Virus record (IMG/VR): IMGVR_UViG_3300035034_000644
Location: 1-34,298 of that record
Direction: 5' to 3' (one strand)
Origin: a virus
DNA: 34,298 nucleotides
Position 1 is the stretch's first letter; every line of letters starts with the position of its first letter. The notes beneath the pieces are model-generated. The model did no database searches. It was given only the letters and a program-made list of their open reading frames with translations, and was not told the DNA's origin. The translations under genes were made by a program, and so were the position numbers. Positions 18,617 to 25,650 of this stretch are shown here, one piece after another.

Positions 18617-19126
18617 TTATCCGTCCAGTTCAGTGCGGGGGAAGGTCTTTTCATTGATGATGATAGTGACCGTACCCGGGGCGTTGCCAGTGTTGATGAG
18701 GTGCTGGTTCATGTCCATCTTGTTTATCTCCGAGACGGCCTGAATGGCTACCTTTGGGGCGTTTTCTTGGTTGTCTACGGCAATCCTATAAAGGATGGCC
18801 TTACGGTGTGCTGCTGTTGGGCCGTCTGCCGCTGCCTGAATGTAGTTTAGCAGCTGCAAGAGCGTCTGCCCTTCTGCGCCGTTCACCACTTTCGAGACGG
18901 TCATGGGGTTGACGCCCACTTTTTCGGCTGTTTTTACGTAGTTCCACCCCGCAAACACCATTTTGACGATCTGGACGTGCTTGAGTTTCATCTGGCGCTG
19001 CATAGCCATGACCCTGTTTTGAGCGTGGGCCATGTCTTTATAGTAGCGGTCGTTTAAAGGGTGGTATGGGTTCTCATCCACCTCTGGAATTTCCGCGATG
19101 TCTAGCTGCATTTTATCTATGTCCAT
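18617..19126 (-). CDS. terS: Probable terminase small subunit
   Basis: A 169-residue protein with a helix-turn-helix-like segment (AGWNYVKTAEKVGVNPMTVS, then KVVNG) at about residues 60-85. Helices and a beta-rich end (GTVTIIINEKTFP) follow. Terminase small subunits use such N-terminal HTH modules to bind packaging sites on DNA. It is the first gene of the leftward operon, two genes before terL. The frame stays open to an ATG at 19258, but the added N-terminus is only the translation of two copies of a 42-bp repeat. I therefore prefer the ATG at 19126; no start has a clear ribosome site, so the start is uncertain. Confidence 0.78.
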   Translation of the reverse strand: MDIDKMQLDIAEIPEVDENPYHPLNDRYYKDMAHAQNRVMAMQRQMKLKHVQIVKMVFAGWNYVKTAEKVGVNPMTVSKVVNGAEGQTLLQLLNYIQAAADGPTAAHRKAILYRIAVDNQENAPKVAIQAVSEINKMDMNQHLINTGNAPGTVTIIINEKTFPRTELDG

Positions 19127-19173
19127 GTGGCGATTGTATAGTGCGTTTATATCCAGCGCAAACCTTCTGTAGG

Positions 19174-19316
19174 TAGTCCTACTAGAAACGAAATCGGTCA
19201 TTTTATGTAAATGGGTGCGAAACCTACTAATAGTCCTACTAGAAACGAAATCGGTCATTTTATGTAAATGGGAGTAGTCCTACTAGAAACGAAATCGGTC
19301 ATTTTATGTAAATGGG
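19174..19316 (-). repeat. Three copies of a 42-bp repeat at the head of the leftward operon
   Basis: Identical 42-bp units lie at 19174-19215, 19231-19272 and 19275-19316, with spacers of 15 and 2 bp. Each contains the palindrome TAGTNNNACTA (as TAGTCCTACTA) and, on the minus strand, an ATG followed by about nine open codons (MTDFVSSRT). The copy starting at 19302 encodes a 15-residue mini-peptide (MTDFVSSRTTPIYIK) whose TGA overlaps the next copy's ATG at 19258 as ATGA. The repeats probably act as a tandem operator, promoter or leader array for the structural operon. Spacing is too irregular and short for CRISPR. Confidence 0.9.
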
Positions 19317-19639
19317 TGCAGCCGCGCGCGCTTTCTGCGATTTAAATTTTACCCGGGGGCCTTTTTATATGGCGTTACTTATGCGTTTAAACATCATTCA
19401 AACAGCGGCTATATATTTAACCCTTGTCTCTTTATATGTCTGTTACTTGCTCGTTACTTATAGCGTTTAAAAGGTATGATATTGCAATTCAATATGTAAT
19501 ATCAGCGCTTATTTAAATAGCATGTTTAAACATATATAAAGTGGCCGGCATGGGGTGCCCTCCCTCCCTCCCTTTACAGCATGTTTACACTACGCCACAC
19601 GCTGCGCTCCAGTGACGGCATACGCCGCCCCCCGTAGCA

Positions 19640-19650
19640 TAGTTAGACTA
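19640..19650. promoter_or_regulatory. TAGTNNNACTA palindrome
   Basis: TAGTTAGACTA followed by TAAAC, in the control region. Candidate operator or -10 region (GACTAT). Confidence 0.5.
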
Positions 19651-19751
19651 TAAACACCACAATTATAATCGGACTATCATAGTTTAGCAGTAATGTAAAC
19701 AGCCTCTGAGACGGCCTGAGAGCGCATGCAGTGACGTTGTAAACACACCCC

Positions 19752-19762
19752 TAGTGCTACTA
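19752..19762. promoter_or_regulatory. TAGTNNNACTA palindrome
   Basis: TAGTGCTACTA followed by TCAAAAC, in the control region. The TGCTACTAT portion would also fit an extended -10 element reading rightward. Confidence 0.5.
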
Positions 19763-19945
19763 TCAAAACATTCTAAAAACGCCGTACGGCGAAAAAGTAC
19801 GTTTTTTGACCAGTTTAACCGCTCGTTAACAGTGCGCACGGCATAGACGAATCCGCTACTATTTTTCCGTGCACTTTCCGTGCAATACCGTTAACGGGCG
19901 TTTACACGGCTGGTGGCTGTTTTGTGCAGTGCAAAAACAGTGCAG

Positions 19946-19987
19946 CGCGTAGTGAAATCGACTATTCGCGTAGTGAAATCGACTATT
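19946..19987. repeat. Two perfect 21-bp tandem repeats (iteron-like), with an inverted partial copy
   Basis: The unit starts CGCGTAGTGAAATCG and ends ACTATT; copies run 19946-19966 and 19967-19987. Twelve bases of it recur inverted at 20175-20186 (CGATTTCACTAC), inside the loop of the nested inverted repeat. Repeated sites next to an AT-rich core resemble initiator-binding iterons. Confidence 0.8.
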
Positions 19988-19997
19988 AGTGACACTA
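19987..19997. promoter_or_regulatory. TAGTNNNACTA palindrome
   Basis: TAGTGACACTA followed by TCGAAAC. It begins on the last base of the second 21-bp repeat. Confidence 0.5.
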
Positions 19998-20075
19998 TCG
20001 AAACTTTCCAAAAACGGCAAAAAGTGCCCGAAAACGGCAAAAAGGCACAAAAGGTAACTAAAATTGAAAACCGAC

Positions 20076-20310
20076 TGTAGCGGACTGTAGCACAGCAACG
20101 GCGCGGGCTGCAGGGCAAAAGGTAACTAAAGGTAACTGCTTTGACCAAAGTCCTGACAGCCTCAGAATTTTAGACGATTTCACTACTGTCTCACTACTGT
20201 ATATATATACAGTACTAAAATTTAAAATATAGTTTCTTAAATACAGTTACCTTTAGTTACCTTTAGCGCTCCAGCCCGCGCCGTTACTGGCGCTACAGTC
20301 CCCCGCTACA
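20076..20310. repeat. Nested inverted repeat with AT-rich palindromic core; candidate replication origin
   Basis: Perfect 21-bp arms (20118-20138 and 20244-20264, made of GGTAACTAAAGGTAACTG-type sequence) are flanked by perfect 13-bp arms (20098-20110 and 20272-20284). These are flanked in turn by 10-bp GGACTGTAGC/GCTACAGTCC arms (20082-20091 and 20292-20301) and 8-bp TGTAGCGG/CCGCTACA arms (20076-20083 and 20303-20310). The 105-nt centre is strongly AT-rich and contains a perfect 20-bp palindrome, TACTGTATATATATACAGTA, at 20195-20214, plus direct repeats TCACTACTGT. A symmetrical site around an easily melted core, beside replication genes, is what an origin might look like. A large cruciform or a transcription control site is the alternative. 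Confidence 0.65.
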
Positions 20311-20463
20311 CTTTAAAAACGCGCTTTTTCTGTAGCCGCGCCGCCATTGCGCACTCACTGCACCCGCGCCGCGCTTTTTTACTGCACACAGCCGCTGCGC
20401 AATCACTGCACACGGCTACTGCACTCTTTTACAGTCCTGCGCAGTAAAAGCCGCTGTAAACAC

Positions 20464-20494
20464 TTGCAACCCTAATTCATAGTGCTACTATAAT
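20464..20494 (+). promoter_or_regulatory. Candidate rightward promoter for the replication module
   Basis: TTGCAA at 20464 and an exact TATAAT at 20489-20494 (19-nt spacer), or TACTAT at 20486 (16-nt spacer), point at the SprT-like gene. The -10 region overlaps the palindrome TAGTGCTACTA at 20480-20490, so a protein bound there would block the promoter. Confidence 0.6.
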
Positions 20495-20503
20495 GACCAC
20501 ACA

Positions 20504-20515
20504 GGCCAGCTGGCC
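20504..20515. promoter_or_regulatory. 12-bp palindrome after the rightward promoter
   Basis: GGCCAGCTGGCC is a perfect palindrome about 10 nt after the -10 box and before the first gene, where an operator could lie. Its binder is unknown. Confidence 0.4.
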
Positions 20516-20551
20516 GCCACTTGCACAATGCAACTATTAGGAATCGCAACT

Positions 20552-21163
20552 ATGACCACTACCACTACCGCCCACACAGTATCCGACCTTGATCGTGAGT
20601 CATGGCTCACTGAAGCAGCACAGTTCATTCTTGACGACCTTATAGCGCCACACTGCGCGCTGCCGTCTACTGACTTTCGTATCAGTATTGGTTTCCCTTC
20701 TGGCAAGCCGTCCAAAGTATTGGCGCAATGTTGGAAGCACGAAGCGAGTGCAGACGGCGTGAACGAAATCTTTGTTTCGCCCACTGTGTCGGATTCTGGC
20801 GAAATACTGGCCGCCCTCACTCACGAGCTGGTGCACTACGCTGACAACTGTGTCAGCGGCCATCAGCACCATTTTGCACGGGTAGCCCGTGCCGTTGGCC
20901 TTGATGGCAAGCTGACAGCCACTGTGGCCAGCCCTGCGCTCGCTGAGCAGCTGGATAAGTACGTAAGCATTCTAGGCACCATCCCCCACGCTAAACTTGA
21001 CGTGTCGTTGTCAGGCAAAAAGAAACAGGGCACCAGAATGCTCAAGGTTGCTTGCAGTGAGTGCGGATTCACTTTCCGCACCACCCAGCGCCATATTGAC
21101 GCCATTCAATACACCGATTGCTTGGCCTGCGATAAAGGCACCCTGCAGGCTGAGGGCGTTTAA
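20552..21163 (+). CDS. SprT-like zinc metalloprotease-type protein
   Basis: Residues 91-95 read HELVH, the HExxH zinc-protease motif, in the context ALTHELVHYADN. A later HQHHFARVARAVGL supplies further His residues. Near the C-terminus two Cys pairs (C168-x2-C171 and C190-x2-C193) form a zinc ribbon. This is the layout of SprT/Spartan-like proteins, which in cells act on DNA-protein crosslinks. It is the first gene of the rightward module, after a promoter. I chose the ATG at 20552 because AGGA lies 9 nt upstream; an in-frame ATG at 20528 lacks a ribosome site. The stop TAA is part of a GTTTAAAC site. The phage substrate is unknown. Confidence 0.85.
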   Translation: MTTTTTAHTVSDLDRESWLTEAAQFILDDLIAPHCALPSTDFRISIGFPSGKPSKVLAQCWKHEASADGVNEIFVSPTVSDSGEILAALTHELVHYADNCVSGHQHHFARVARAVGLDGKLTATVASPALAEQLDKYVSILGTIPHAKLDVSLSGKKKQGTRMLKVACSECGFTFRTTQRHIDAIQYTDCLACDKGTLQAEGV

Positions 21164-23978: not shown

Positions 23979-25340
23979 CTAACCCCCCATGAGGTGCTGT
24001 TTAAACAGTATCTCATGGTCTTCTTTACCCTCCGCCCTATCCCATACCAGCTCATCCACAGTACCCTCACCGATCAGCGTTTTGACCCTCACCTTGTGCT
24101 TCTGCCCACGACGCCAGATACGGGCAATGGTCTGCATACGGGCGTCGCGCGACCATATAGGTCCAAGCCATAGCATATCCGCCCCACCTTCATACAGATT
24201 AAGGCCGTGCCCTGCCGATTTCGGGTGCAATAAAAGCACTTCCCTTTCGCCGTCATTCCATTCCGCCATGGTTTTGTCGTTCAGCTCAGACCCCGGAAAC
24301 AGCTCAAGCAAACGCTCAAGGTCTGCTGCAAACCAATAGCAGACAATCACAGCCCCCCCGCGCGCCAAGATAGATGAAATCTCTATACGCGCGCGCTCAA
24401 GTTTGTAATCGCTCAGATACACGGCCTCGCCCCGCTGCCCCTCGTCGGTTCTGGACTGGTAAAGGAAGCCACTGGCACACTGCTGCAACTTGTTGGAGAG
24501 GATAGCCGCCGTATCGGCGGTGACGGTAACACCGGTCGTGCCCAACTCGACAGCCAGACTGCGGCGAAGCTCGTCGTACTGGAGACGAAGGGCAGGGGGG
24601 AGGGGGACGTATACCCGTTCATCGGACAGCTGGGGGAGCTGGTCGCGGTAGTCCGGCATGGTGTAAACAACGTCCTGTATTTTACCGGCTATCTTCTTAG
24701 CGGCCCAAGCGTACATTTCCCAATTATATTCATTGTAATCAGTAGGATAGAAATACTTACGCAAATACCCGTCCTTCCGGGTGCCGAGGCGTTCACCCCC
24801 ATCTACTATCAGCATCTGACCAAAAAGCCCCGTCCAGTCCTCAGATACCGGCGTACCAGTCATGCCGACGCGCCAAACGAAGTCCTTTAAACGCGGACGT
24901 ATGGCCTTGAACTGCGCCCCGCCTGTATTTTTTAACTTGGTCAGCTCGTCAATTACTAGGCCGTCAAACATTTCTTTGGCCTTAAATTCCCGAAACAACC
25001 ACGGCAAATTCTCGAAATTGATGCACACCACCTGCGCAGACGACCTCAGCGCGGACACTCTACGACCGGCGTTACTGCCCGACGCATCGGCCACCTCAAC
25101 GATGCCTTTGAGCTGCGCCCACTTGTCGCATTCGGTGGCCCATACGTTTTTACAGACTTTGACTGGCGCCACCACCAAAACACGTTTCAACACCCCCTCA
25201 GCCAGCAATTCGGCTATGGCCGTGAGTGAAACCACTGTTTTGCCCGCCCCCATGGCCGCCACCAGCAAGGTATGGTCAGTTTCAAACAGCCGTTCAACGG
25301 CCTGCACCTGATCGTGCGAAAAATCATCTAAAGTCAGCAT
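23979..25340 (-). CDS. SNF2/DEAD-type helicase-like ATPase
   Basis: A superfamily 2 protein of 453 aa. Motif I is AAMGAGKTVV with Lys34. Motif Ia lies in VLVVAPVKVCKNVW. Motif II is LVIDELTK, a DELT variant of DEAx. Motif III is GMTGTPVSEDW. In the second lobe ILARGGAVIVCYWFAADLER, HPKSAGHGLNL and QTIARIWRRGQKHKV are motifs IV-VI of SNF2-like enzymes. Phage members are usually called DNA helicases; DNA translocation is known of the family, strand separation not proven. It runs leftward against its neighbours and overlaps the VRR-NUC gene by 17 nt, so the pair forms one operon. Sites GTTTAAAC at 23999 and GTGTAAAC at 24661 lie inside. Confidence 0.9.
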   Translation of the reverse strand: MLTLDDFSHDQVQAVERLFETDHTLLVAAMGAGKTVVSLTAIAELLAEGVLKRVLVVAPVKVCKNVWATECDKWAQLKGIVEVADASGSNAGRRVSALRSSAQVVCINFENLPWLFREFKAKEMFDGLVIDELTKLKNTGGAQFKAIRPRLKDFVWRVGMTGTPVSEDWTGLFGQMLIVDGGERLGTRKDGYLRKYFYPTDYNEYNWEMYAWAAKKIAGKIQDVVYTMPDYRDQLPQLSDERVYVPLPPALRLQYDELRRSLAVELGTTGVTVTADTAAILSNKLQQCASGFLYQSRTDEGQRGEAVYLSDYKLERARIEISSILARGGAVIVCYWFAADLERLLELFPGSELNDKTMAEWNDGEREVLLLHPKSAGHGLNLYEGGADMLWLGPIWSRDARMQTIARIWRRGQKHKVRVKTLIGEGTVDELVWDRAEGKEDHEILFKQHLMGG

Positions 25341-25650
25341 GGCTAAACTCCGTGGTCATCTCGTGCAGCACTTCTATCTCTTGCAAAACCTGATCGGCCA
25401 GCTCTTTTGAATCCACCAACCGGACGTTGGCGCCGTGCTCGTGTAAGTCTGTCATCACCCGTTGTTGAGCTGGGGACACCTTACCGGTGCCGGCAGGGGT
25501 TTTTAGTTCTACGAACATCACTACGCCTTTATAGACAATCAGCGCATCAGGAAAGCCCTGACGTGAACGGCTTTCCAGCTTATCGAACGTCATGCCGAGG
25601 CTCTTTGCCCGGTGGCGTAAATAGTCTTGTAACGCTCTTTCGGTTTTCAT
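25324..25650 (-). CDS. VRR-NUC domain nuclease
   Basis: A 108-residue stand-alone VRR-NUC domain of the PD-(D/E)xK superfamily. Catalytic elements are Glu4 in the first helix, GFPD (Asp35), VELK (Glu48, Lys50) and a later SPAQQ (Gln near 61). Family members such as FAN1 and phage versions cut branched or flapped DNA, for example Holliday junctions. It is the first gene of a leftward two-gene operon with the SNF2-type helicase, which suggests joint processing of branched replication intermediates. The promoter must lie in the short gap shared with the methyltransferase gene. Confidence 0.9.
   Translation of the reverse strand: MKTERALQDYLRHRAKSLGMTFDKLESRSRQGFPDALIVYKGVVMFVELKTPAGTGKVSPAQQRVMTDLHEHGANVRLVDSKELADQVLQEIEVLHEMTTEFSHADFR

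Follow-up and report, generated by a model that had tools for sequence, protein, structure and literature searches.

An iteron-bearing nested inverted repeat as the probable replication origin of a tailed phage

Primase-helicase-type proteins are known or proposed to open replication origins in the P4, pRN1 and PICI systems (PMC4234260, PMC6092414, PMC7581432). PICI origins always have two sets of iterons flanking an A+T-rich region (PMC6092414). The SaPI Rep and SCCmec Cch2 proteins recognise their origins through the C-terminal domain (PMC7581432), and stem-loop origins have been proposed for proteins that combine an AEP primase, an SF3 helicase and a winged helix (PMC4234260). Here we describe an element in the genome of a tailed phage, represented by a single IMG/VR virus record used in full (34,298 bases; the window). 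In our judgement, origins have rarely been mapped in tailed phages that carry primase-helicase modules.

The original prediction had put forward a candidate origin of replication at 20076-20310, and from its sequence features we consider it quite probable that this element, taken as a whole, is the phage's replication origin. That reading explains best the inverted iterons around an A+T-rich centre, the location with the TerS-like gene on one side and the early genes on the other, the presence of an initiator-type protein, and an architecture kept in concert among relatives. Features are collected in the table.

Table. Features of the proposed origin and its setting; positions are those of the window unless a contig is named.
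Feature	Position	Strand	Remarks
Intergenic region, 1.27 kb	19259..20527	.	divergence of TerS-like (18617-19258, -) and SprT-like (20528-21163, +) genes; ORF list, tblastn for SprT-like
Whole nested inverted repeat, proposed origin core	20076..20310	.	self-match, shuffles, folding
Outermost left arms, 8 + 10 bp	20076..20091	+	20076-20083 pairs with 20303-20310; 20082-20091 with 20292-20301
Outermost right arms, 10 + 8 bp	20292..20310	-	
G+C-rich left arm, 14 bp, AACGGCGCGGGCTG	20097..20110	+	partner 20272-20285
G+C-rich right arm, 14 bp, CAGCCCGCGCCGTT	20272..20285	-	
Left iteron pair, AAAGGTAACT x2	20118..20137	+	inside 21-bp arm 20118-20138
Right iteron pair, inverted, AGTTACCTTT x2	20245..20264	-	
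Upstream iteron pair	20040..20059	+	degenerate AAAAGGCACA 20040-20049, exact AAAGGTAACT 20050-20059
A+T-rich centre, 105 nt, proposed unwinding element	20139..20243	.	70% A+T
TTGACCAAAGT	20141..20151	+	conserved beside left iterons in G002
Perfect 20-bp palindrome TACTGTATATATATACAGTA	20195..20214	.	G002 counterpart CACTACTGTCTATATATACAGTACT
Tandem repeats, two x 21 bp, CGCGTAGTGAAATCGACTATT	19946..19987	+	19946-19966 / 19967-19987, 100% identical
Inverted 16-nt copy (94%) of 21-bp tandem repeat	20171..20186	-	
Operator-like palindrome TAGTGCTACTA	20480..20490	+	overlaps -10-like TATAAT (20489-20494) of rightward operon
Family A DNA polymerase, 668 aa	28960..30966	+	
Proposed initiator, 833 aa	31056..33557	+	RepB-type primase (PF16793), SF3-type helicase (PF19263), C-terminal domain modelled as winged helix
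TTACTCTCCCAAGGGCT(G) copies	L140 8537; L141 1606 and 1753; L142 7558; L163 457		

The element is an imperfect inverted repeat of 235 nt, found by matching the window to itself in inverted orientation (E 1.3e-16); no inverted repeat elsewhere in the contig is as strong. Aligned with its own reverse complement, the intergenic region gave a local score of 85, whereas 200 dinucleotide shuffles averaged 26 and never exceeded 44; folded as a single strand, the element reached z = -14.8. Its nested build is largely as predicted: arms of 21, 10 and 8 bp stand in the proposed order, while the arm given as 13 bp is in fact 14 bp long, and small loops separate successive arms. The A+T-rich centre with its palindrome and the 21-bp tandem repeats with an inverted copy in the centre are likewise present. 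A+T content reaches 80% over 20185-20243, against a window mean of 45%. DNA similarity searches of the window against named phages and plasmids gave no relevant match and no named near relative at the element locus.

Each 21-bp arm (20118-20138 and 20244-20264) consists of two tandem 10-bp iterons, AAAGGTAACT, plus one base. Five exact copies of this iteron occur in the window, all at the element locus. Sites fitting the looser consensus AAARGNNACW are concentrated within the proposed origin (it holds 6 of the window's 11, and its counterparts hold 7 of 12 in the related genome G001 and 4 of 10 in G002, where 0.03-0.06 were expected), counts that are descriptive because the consensus was derived from the same origins. 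An exact iteron pair in contig L046 was treated as chance; it is intergenic in a microvirus-like contig and has no inverted partner. A cluster of DnaA boxes, as in a DnaA-dependent origin, was not found in the window, in agreement with the prediction: one TTWTNCACA-type site occurs in the whole window, and none at the element.

Structural genes run leftward up to the TerS-like gene, a label that reflects its position next to TerL and the helix-turn-helix look of its sequence, not a family match. Rightward genes encode a SprT-like protein (named by tblastn to annotated SprT-like proteases), an AAA ATPase, an N6/N4 methyltransferase, a DUF2800/PD-(D/E)XK protein, the family A polymerase and the 833-aa primase-helicase; SNF2-type helicase and VRR-NUC genes lie on the opposite strand. 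Possession of both an initiator-type primase-helicase and its own polymerase counts in favour of an origin in this genome. The element was correctly placed at a divergence point, and its placing beside the replication genes was right only in part: its neighbours are the SprT-like and AAA ATPase genes, and the polymerase and primase-helicase genes begin 8.7 and 10.7 kb away. The separation of ∼11 kb from the proposed initiator gene counts against an origin, since PICI and pRN1 origins lie just 3' of theirs. So does the cumulative GC skew, which had been suggested as a check: its minimum was found elsewhere, at 25.8 kb in the window and 27.5 kb in G001, and in G002 it was not at the origin. The skew test is weak either way, because the window minimum sits at the end of an opposite-strand gene block (23979-25650) and is confounded with gene direction.

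The 833-aa protein matched RepB_primase and DUF5906 above the Pfam cut-offs. It retains the VIVLDDI and Walker B motifs; the Walker A motif of its SF3-type helicase (residues 529-534) reads GIGRST, with Arg replacing Lys, and four close homologues have the same replacement (GIGRST/GVGRST). In a model of its last 144 residues (690-833; pLDDT 76), three helices lead into a beta hairpin, the layout of a winged helix. Fold searches with this C-terminal domain returned many winged-helix domains, none significant (best E 0.1). We infer from the model, which is of moderate confidence, that the domain is probably a winged helix. This moderate model and the Walker A Arg both count against the proposed reading.

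We propose that an iteron-binding initiator, most likely this primase-helicase acting through its C-terminal winged helix, would assemble as one oligomer on the iteron pair of each arm and melt the A+T-rich centre. Both strands would then be primed at the melted centre, and the phage's family A polymerase would extend the primers, giving bidirectional replication. The long arms might play a further role by extruding a cruciform or stem-loop. A search for co-variation between iterons and the primase-helicase C-terminus gave no significant result, which counts against the proposal: sites shared only with G002 were not enriched in the C-terminal domain (p = 0.30). The window and G002 have identical iterons, yet the window primase-helicase is closer to that of G001 (82%) than to that of G002 (65%).

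The SprT-like neighbour has close relatives in three contigs, at 87% (L003, in G001), 85% (L004) and 73% (L005, in G002), and each carries an element of this type at the matching position. Only four instances are known, a small number that counts against the reading as an origin. G001 has 34,976 b, L004 5,538 b and G002 38,147 b. The inverted repeat has arms of 68 nt (85% matching) with 84 nt between them in L003, and of 53 nt (87%), again with 84 nt between, in L004. Iterons are AAAAGACACT in L003 and AAAAG[AC]CACA with [GC]TTGGT[CT]ACT in L004, and in both contigs the outer arms differ from the window's; GGGCTGNAGG, part of the window's 14-bp left arm, is common to the left arms of both. Several other candidates were set aside. 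Where TerL relatives have other strong inverted repeats, these are simple palindromes, hairpins or palindromes in tandem, and the named TerL-sharing phages Venkman, HTVC203P, Mvi-Yong1342-1 and ctXG6705 have other replication modules by annotation. No comparable long-armed repeat was found in ctNMl277 or ct8d5349, which share the polymerase, and a search of genomes for prophage relatives gave distant primase matches only.

Comparison of the arms indicates that they change together. Within a phage, the two arms match at 57 of 62 positions in the window, 54 of 64 in L003 and 48 of 57 in L004, more than the roughly 34-40 matches of 57-63 between window arms and those of L003 or L004. Over 33 inner ungapped positions, 10 pair-preserving double changes separate the window from L003, where 2.6 are expected for independent arms, with the register of L003 slightly uncertain because its iterons are spaced 11 bp; the window and L004 differ by 5 at the same positions, where 1.0 is expected. 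By this measure the arms of L003 and L004 changed in concert, the mirror structure itself being kept while its letters differ, as has been reported for the stem-loops of pRN plasmids. This suggests either that likeness of the arms is kept by selection or conversion, or that whole origin cassettes were swapped; by both routes, matched arms belong together.

G002 gives a different view of the element. Both termini of this contig fall in a T run that belongs to the centre (20 T as terminal repeat; L034 1-20 and the end of L035), and its two ends jointly carry the window's iteron pairs, a central palindrome like the window's, and TTGACCAAAGT. The contig probably represents a complete genome, either circular or circularly permuted, that the assembler broke at the T run and that went unrecognised as complete. 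Likeness to the window persists in the right outer arm of G002 and is absent from the left. The original prediction had held that arms lost in close relatives, with everything else retained, would speak against an origin; this was partly found: iterons and centre are retained, and the long outer arms no longer match each other. The long arms have probably decayed in G002, which would leave the iterons and centre as the essential part; outer arms are not essential in every relative, and iterons and centre seem to be. Comparison of the four relatives thereby yields a testable minimal origin, in which the kept parts (iterons and A+T-rich centre) are set apart from the long arms that can be lost.

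Some of these features would also be expected if the region served transcription control only, with operators and promoters of the divergent operons and with the inverted repeat acting in looping or as one large operator. The divergence of the two operons falls in this region; seven operator-like TAGTNNNACTA sites stand within it or just to its left, some overlapping promoter-like sequences, and L003 and L004 carry such a site inside the centre. We nevertheless hold control of transcription as the sole function to be unlikely. The operator-like motif recurs at other genes across the genome, which the exact iterons do not, and a 57-nt arm pair changing in concert exceeds the needs of repressor sites. 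Origins often serve as promoters too, and the two functions can both hold.

The palindrome TAGTNNNACTA occurs 11 times in the window (0.26 expected), mostly just upstream of genes, at 19174, 19231, 19275, 19640, 19752, 19987, 20480, 25674, 26461, 28531 and 33572. G001 and G002 have 10-11 copies each, five of those in G001 lying inside a tandem repeat. One window copy just precedes a gene (33596) for a 54-aa MazE-like/UrfF-like protein (weak matches below curated cut-offs), which could be the binder of the motif. A second motif, GTTTAAAC, was found 13 times in the window (0.59 expected), at 2186, 8219, 10744, 11440, 12492, 16186, 19385, 19524, 21158, 22386, 23269, 23999 and 27376, with 14 copies in G001 and 13 in G002; several copies mark the ends of the same genes in these genomes. 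Where the SNF2-type helicase gene reaches its 3' end, the motif forms the centre of a 32-bp palindrome, imperfect in the window (23987-24018) and perfect in G001 (L033 8187-8218).

Because the TerS-like gene is the direct neighbour, with its start ∼0.8 kb away, the element might instead be a packaging site (pac or cos), whose repeats the small terminase would bind to start packaging. Four related-phage contigs (L036, L037, L039 and L061) end in the intergenic region, and G002 ends inside the centre, although a break in a poly-T run can be explained by assembly. Symmetric iterons around an A+T-rich centre would suit unwinding better than directional packaging. Nor do the iterons follow the terminase: they are identical in the window and G002, whose TerS-like proteins are only 43% identical, and differ between the window and G001, whose TerS-like proteins are 73% identical. 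That mismatch likewise fails to single out the primase-helicase. Overall, packaging seems to us a rather improbable role for the element. A structured non-coding RNA transcribed from the region is very improbable, despite the very stable fold and the pair-preserving changes in relatives, for most mismatches between the arms (13 of 21) are transversions, G-U-compatible changes show no clear excess on either strand, Rfam gave no match, and the A+T-rich centre and iterons would be left unexplained.

The reading as an origin gains some further support outside the phage group. We scanned with the L003/L004 arm sequence TTACTCTNCCAAGGGCTG and matched four contigs from outside the group. The sequence shared is 17-18 bp, TTACTCTCCCAAGGGCT(G); it is present in the L004 arms and, with one difference (A for C), in the L003 arms, and the window retains only its GGGCTGNAGG part. 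Outside the group, every copy reads C at the free position and again just ahead of TTACTCT. The window's TerL, SprT, polymerase and primase-helicase were absent from the searched stretch of the four contigs. In L140 and L142, phages with a Prim-Pol primase, the shared sequence lies about 680 and 230 bp 3' of the Prim-Pol gene. L141, an integrase-bearing, satellite-like element, carries it twice at a distance of 147 bp, the copies agreeing over 21 bases and lying 3' of a Toprim/DUF3987 primase-helicase gene and outside inverted GTGCAGC iterons that flank an A+T-rich centre; in L144/L163 the sequence stands beside inverted GTGACGC repeats around an A+T-rich tract. Its occurrence in A+T-rich, iteron-flanked regions, adjoined in L140, L141 and L142 by a primase or primase-helicase gene, counts for an origin.

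Elsewhere the shared sequence was not found: allowing up to four mismatches, it was absent from seven named-phage flanks beside related primases, from the window and from G002, and an exact match occurred in 0 of 369 genomes of one bacterial class. Where tested, it was not a tRNA or Rfam family, and it was not found printed in the literature searched. In so large a collection, chance can bring back a pattern of 17 bases; the hit count by itself proves little, and the case rests on context and on the double copy in L141. We suggest, tentatively and with more doubt than belief, that origins of unrelated phages and satellites share TTACTCTCCCAAGGGCT(G) as a portable module, fixed while iterons and replication proteins differ. 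Such a module would be read by a component that all of these replicons meet, for example a host factor, and if confirmed would be a previously unrecognised common recognition element.

The element is of a known general kind with a build of its own. P4 alpha has a Toprim primase, and P4 iterons differ from those described here in sequence and layout. Like the proposed initiator, alpha is a primase-helicase with a winged helix that binds short origin repeats (PMC4234260). The IncQ plasmid RSF1010 offers a RepB-family primase domain and an iteron-bearing oriV with two oppositely placed functional halves (PMC4434180, PMC6925257), but it uses three proteins (RepA, RepB and RepC) and 40-nt ssi sites with hairpins, whereas primase and helicase are joined in one protein in the window. 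No RepC-like protein appeared in the window family scans made, which covered not every small ORF, and short-arm folding gave no consistent hairpin of the small ssiA/ssiB kind in the arms.

The plasmid pRN1 and the phage BIP-1 (PMC4234260) share with the element a long imperfect stem-loop kept despite sequence divergence (in the window, L003 and L004; weak in G002). Their initiator has an AEP primase, an SF3 helicase and a C-terminal winged helix; the window protein has matches to RepB_primase and DUF5906, a putative winged helix from a moderate model, and the Walker A Arg. Unlike the window, pRN1 has no iterons and its stem-loop lies 3' of the initiator gene; the window's primase, for its part, is RepB-type. 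SaPI and Gram-negative PICI origins, like the element, have two sets of short iterons around an A+T-rich region, and they are opened by a helicase that in some cases carries a fused primase (PMC6092414). There the origin is immediately 3' of the rep or pri-rep gene, not ∼10.7 kb from it; the window iterons are few, strictly inverted and set inside long matching arms, and the element lies in a tailed phage.
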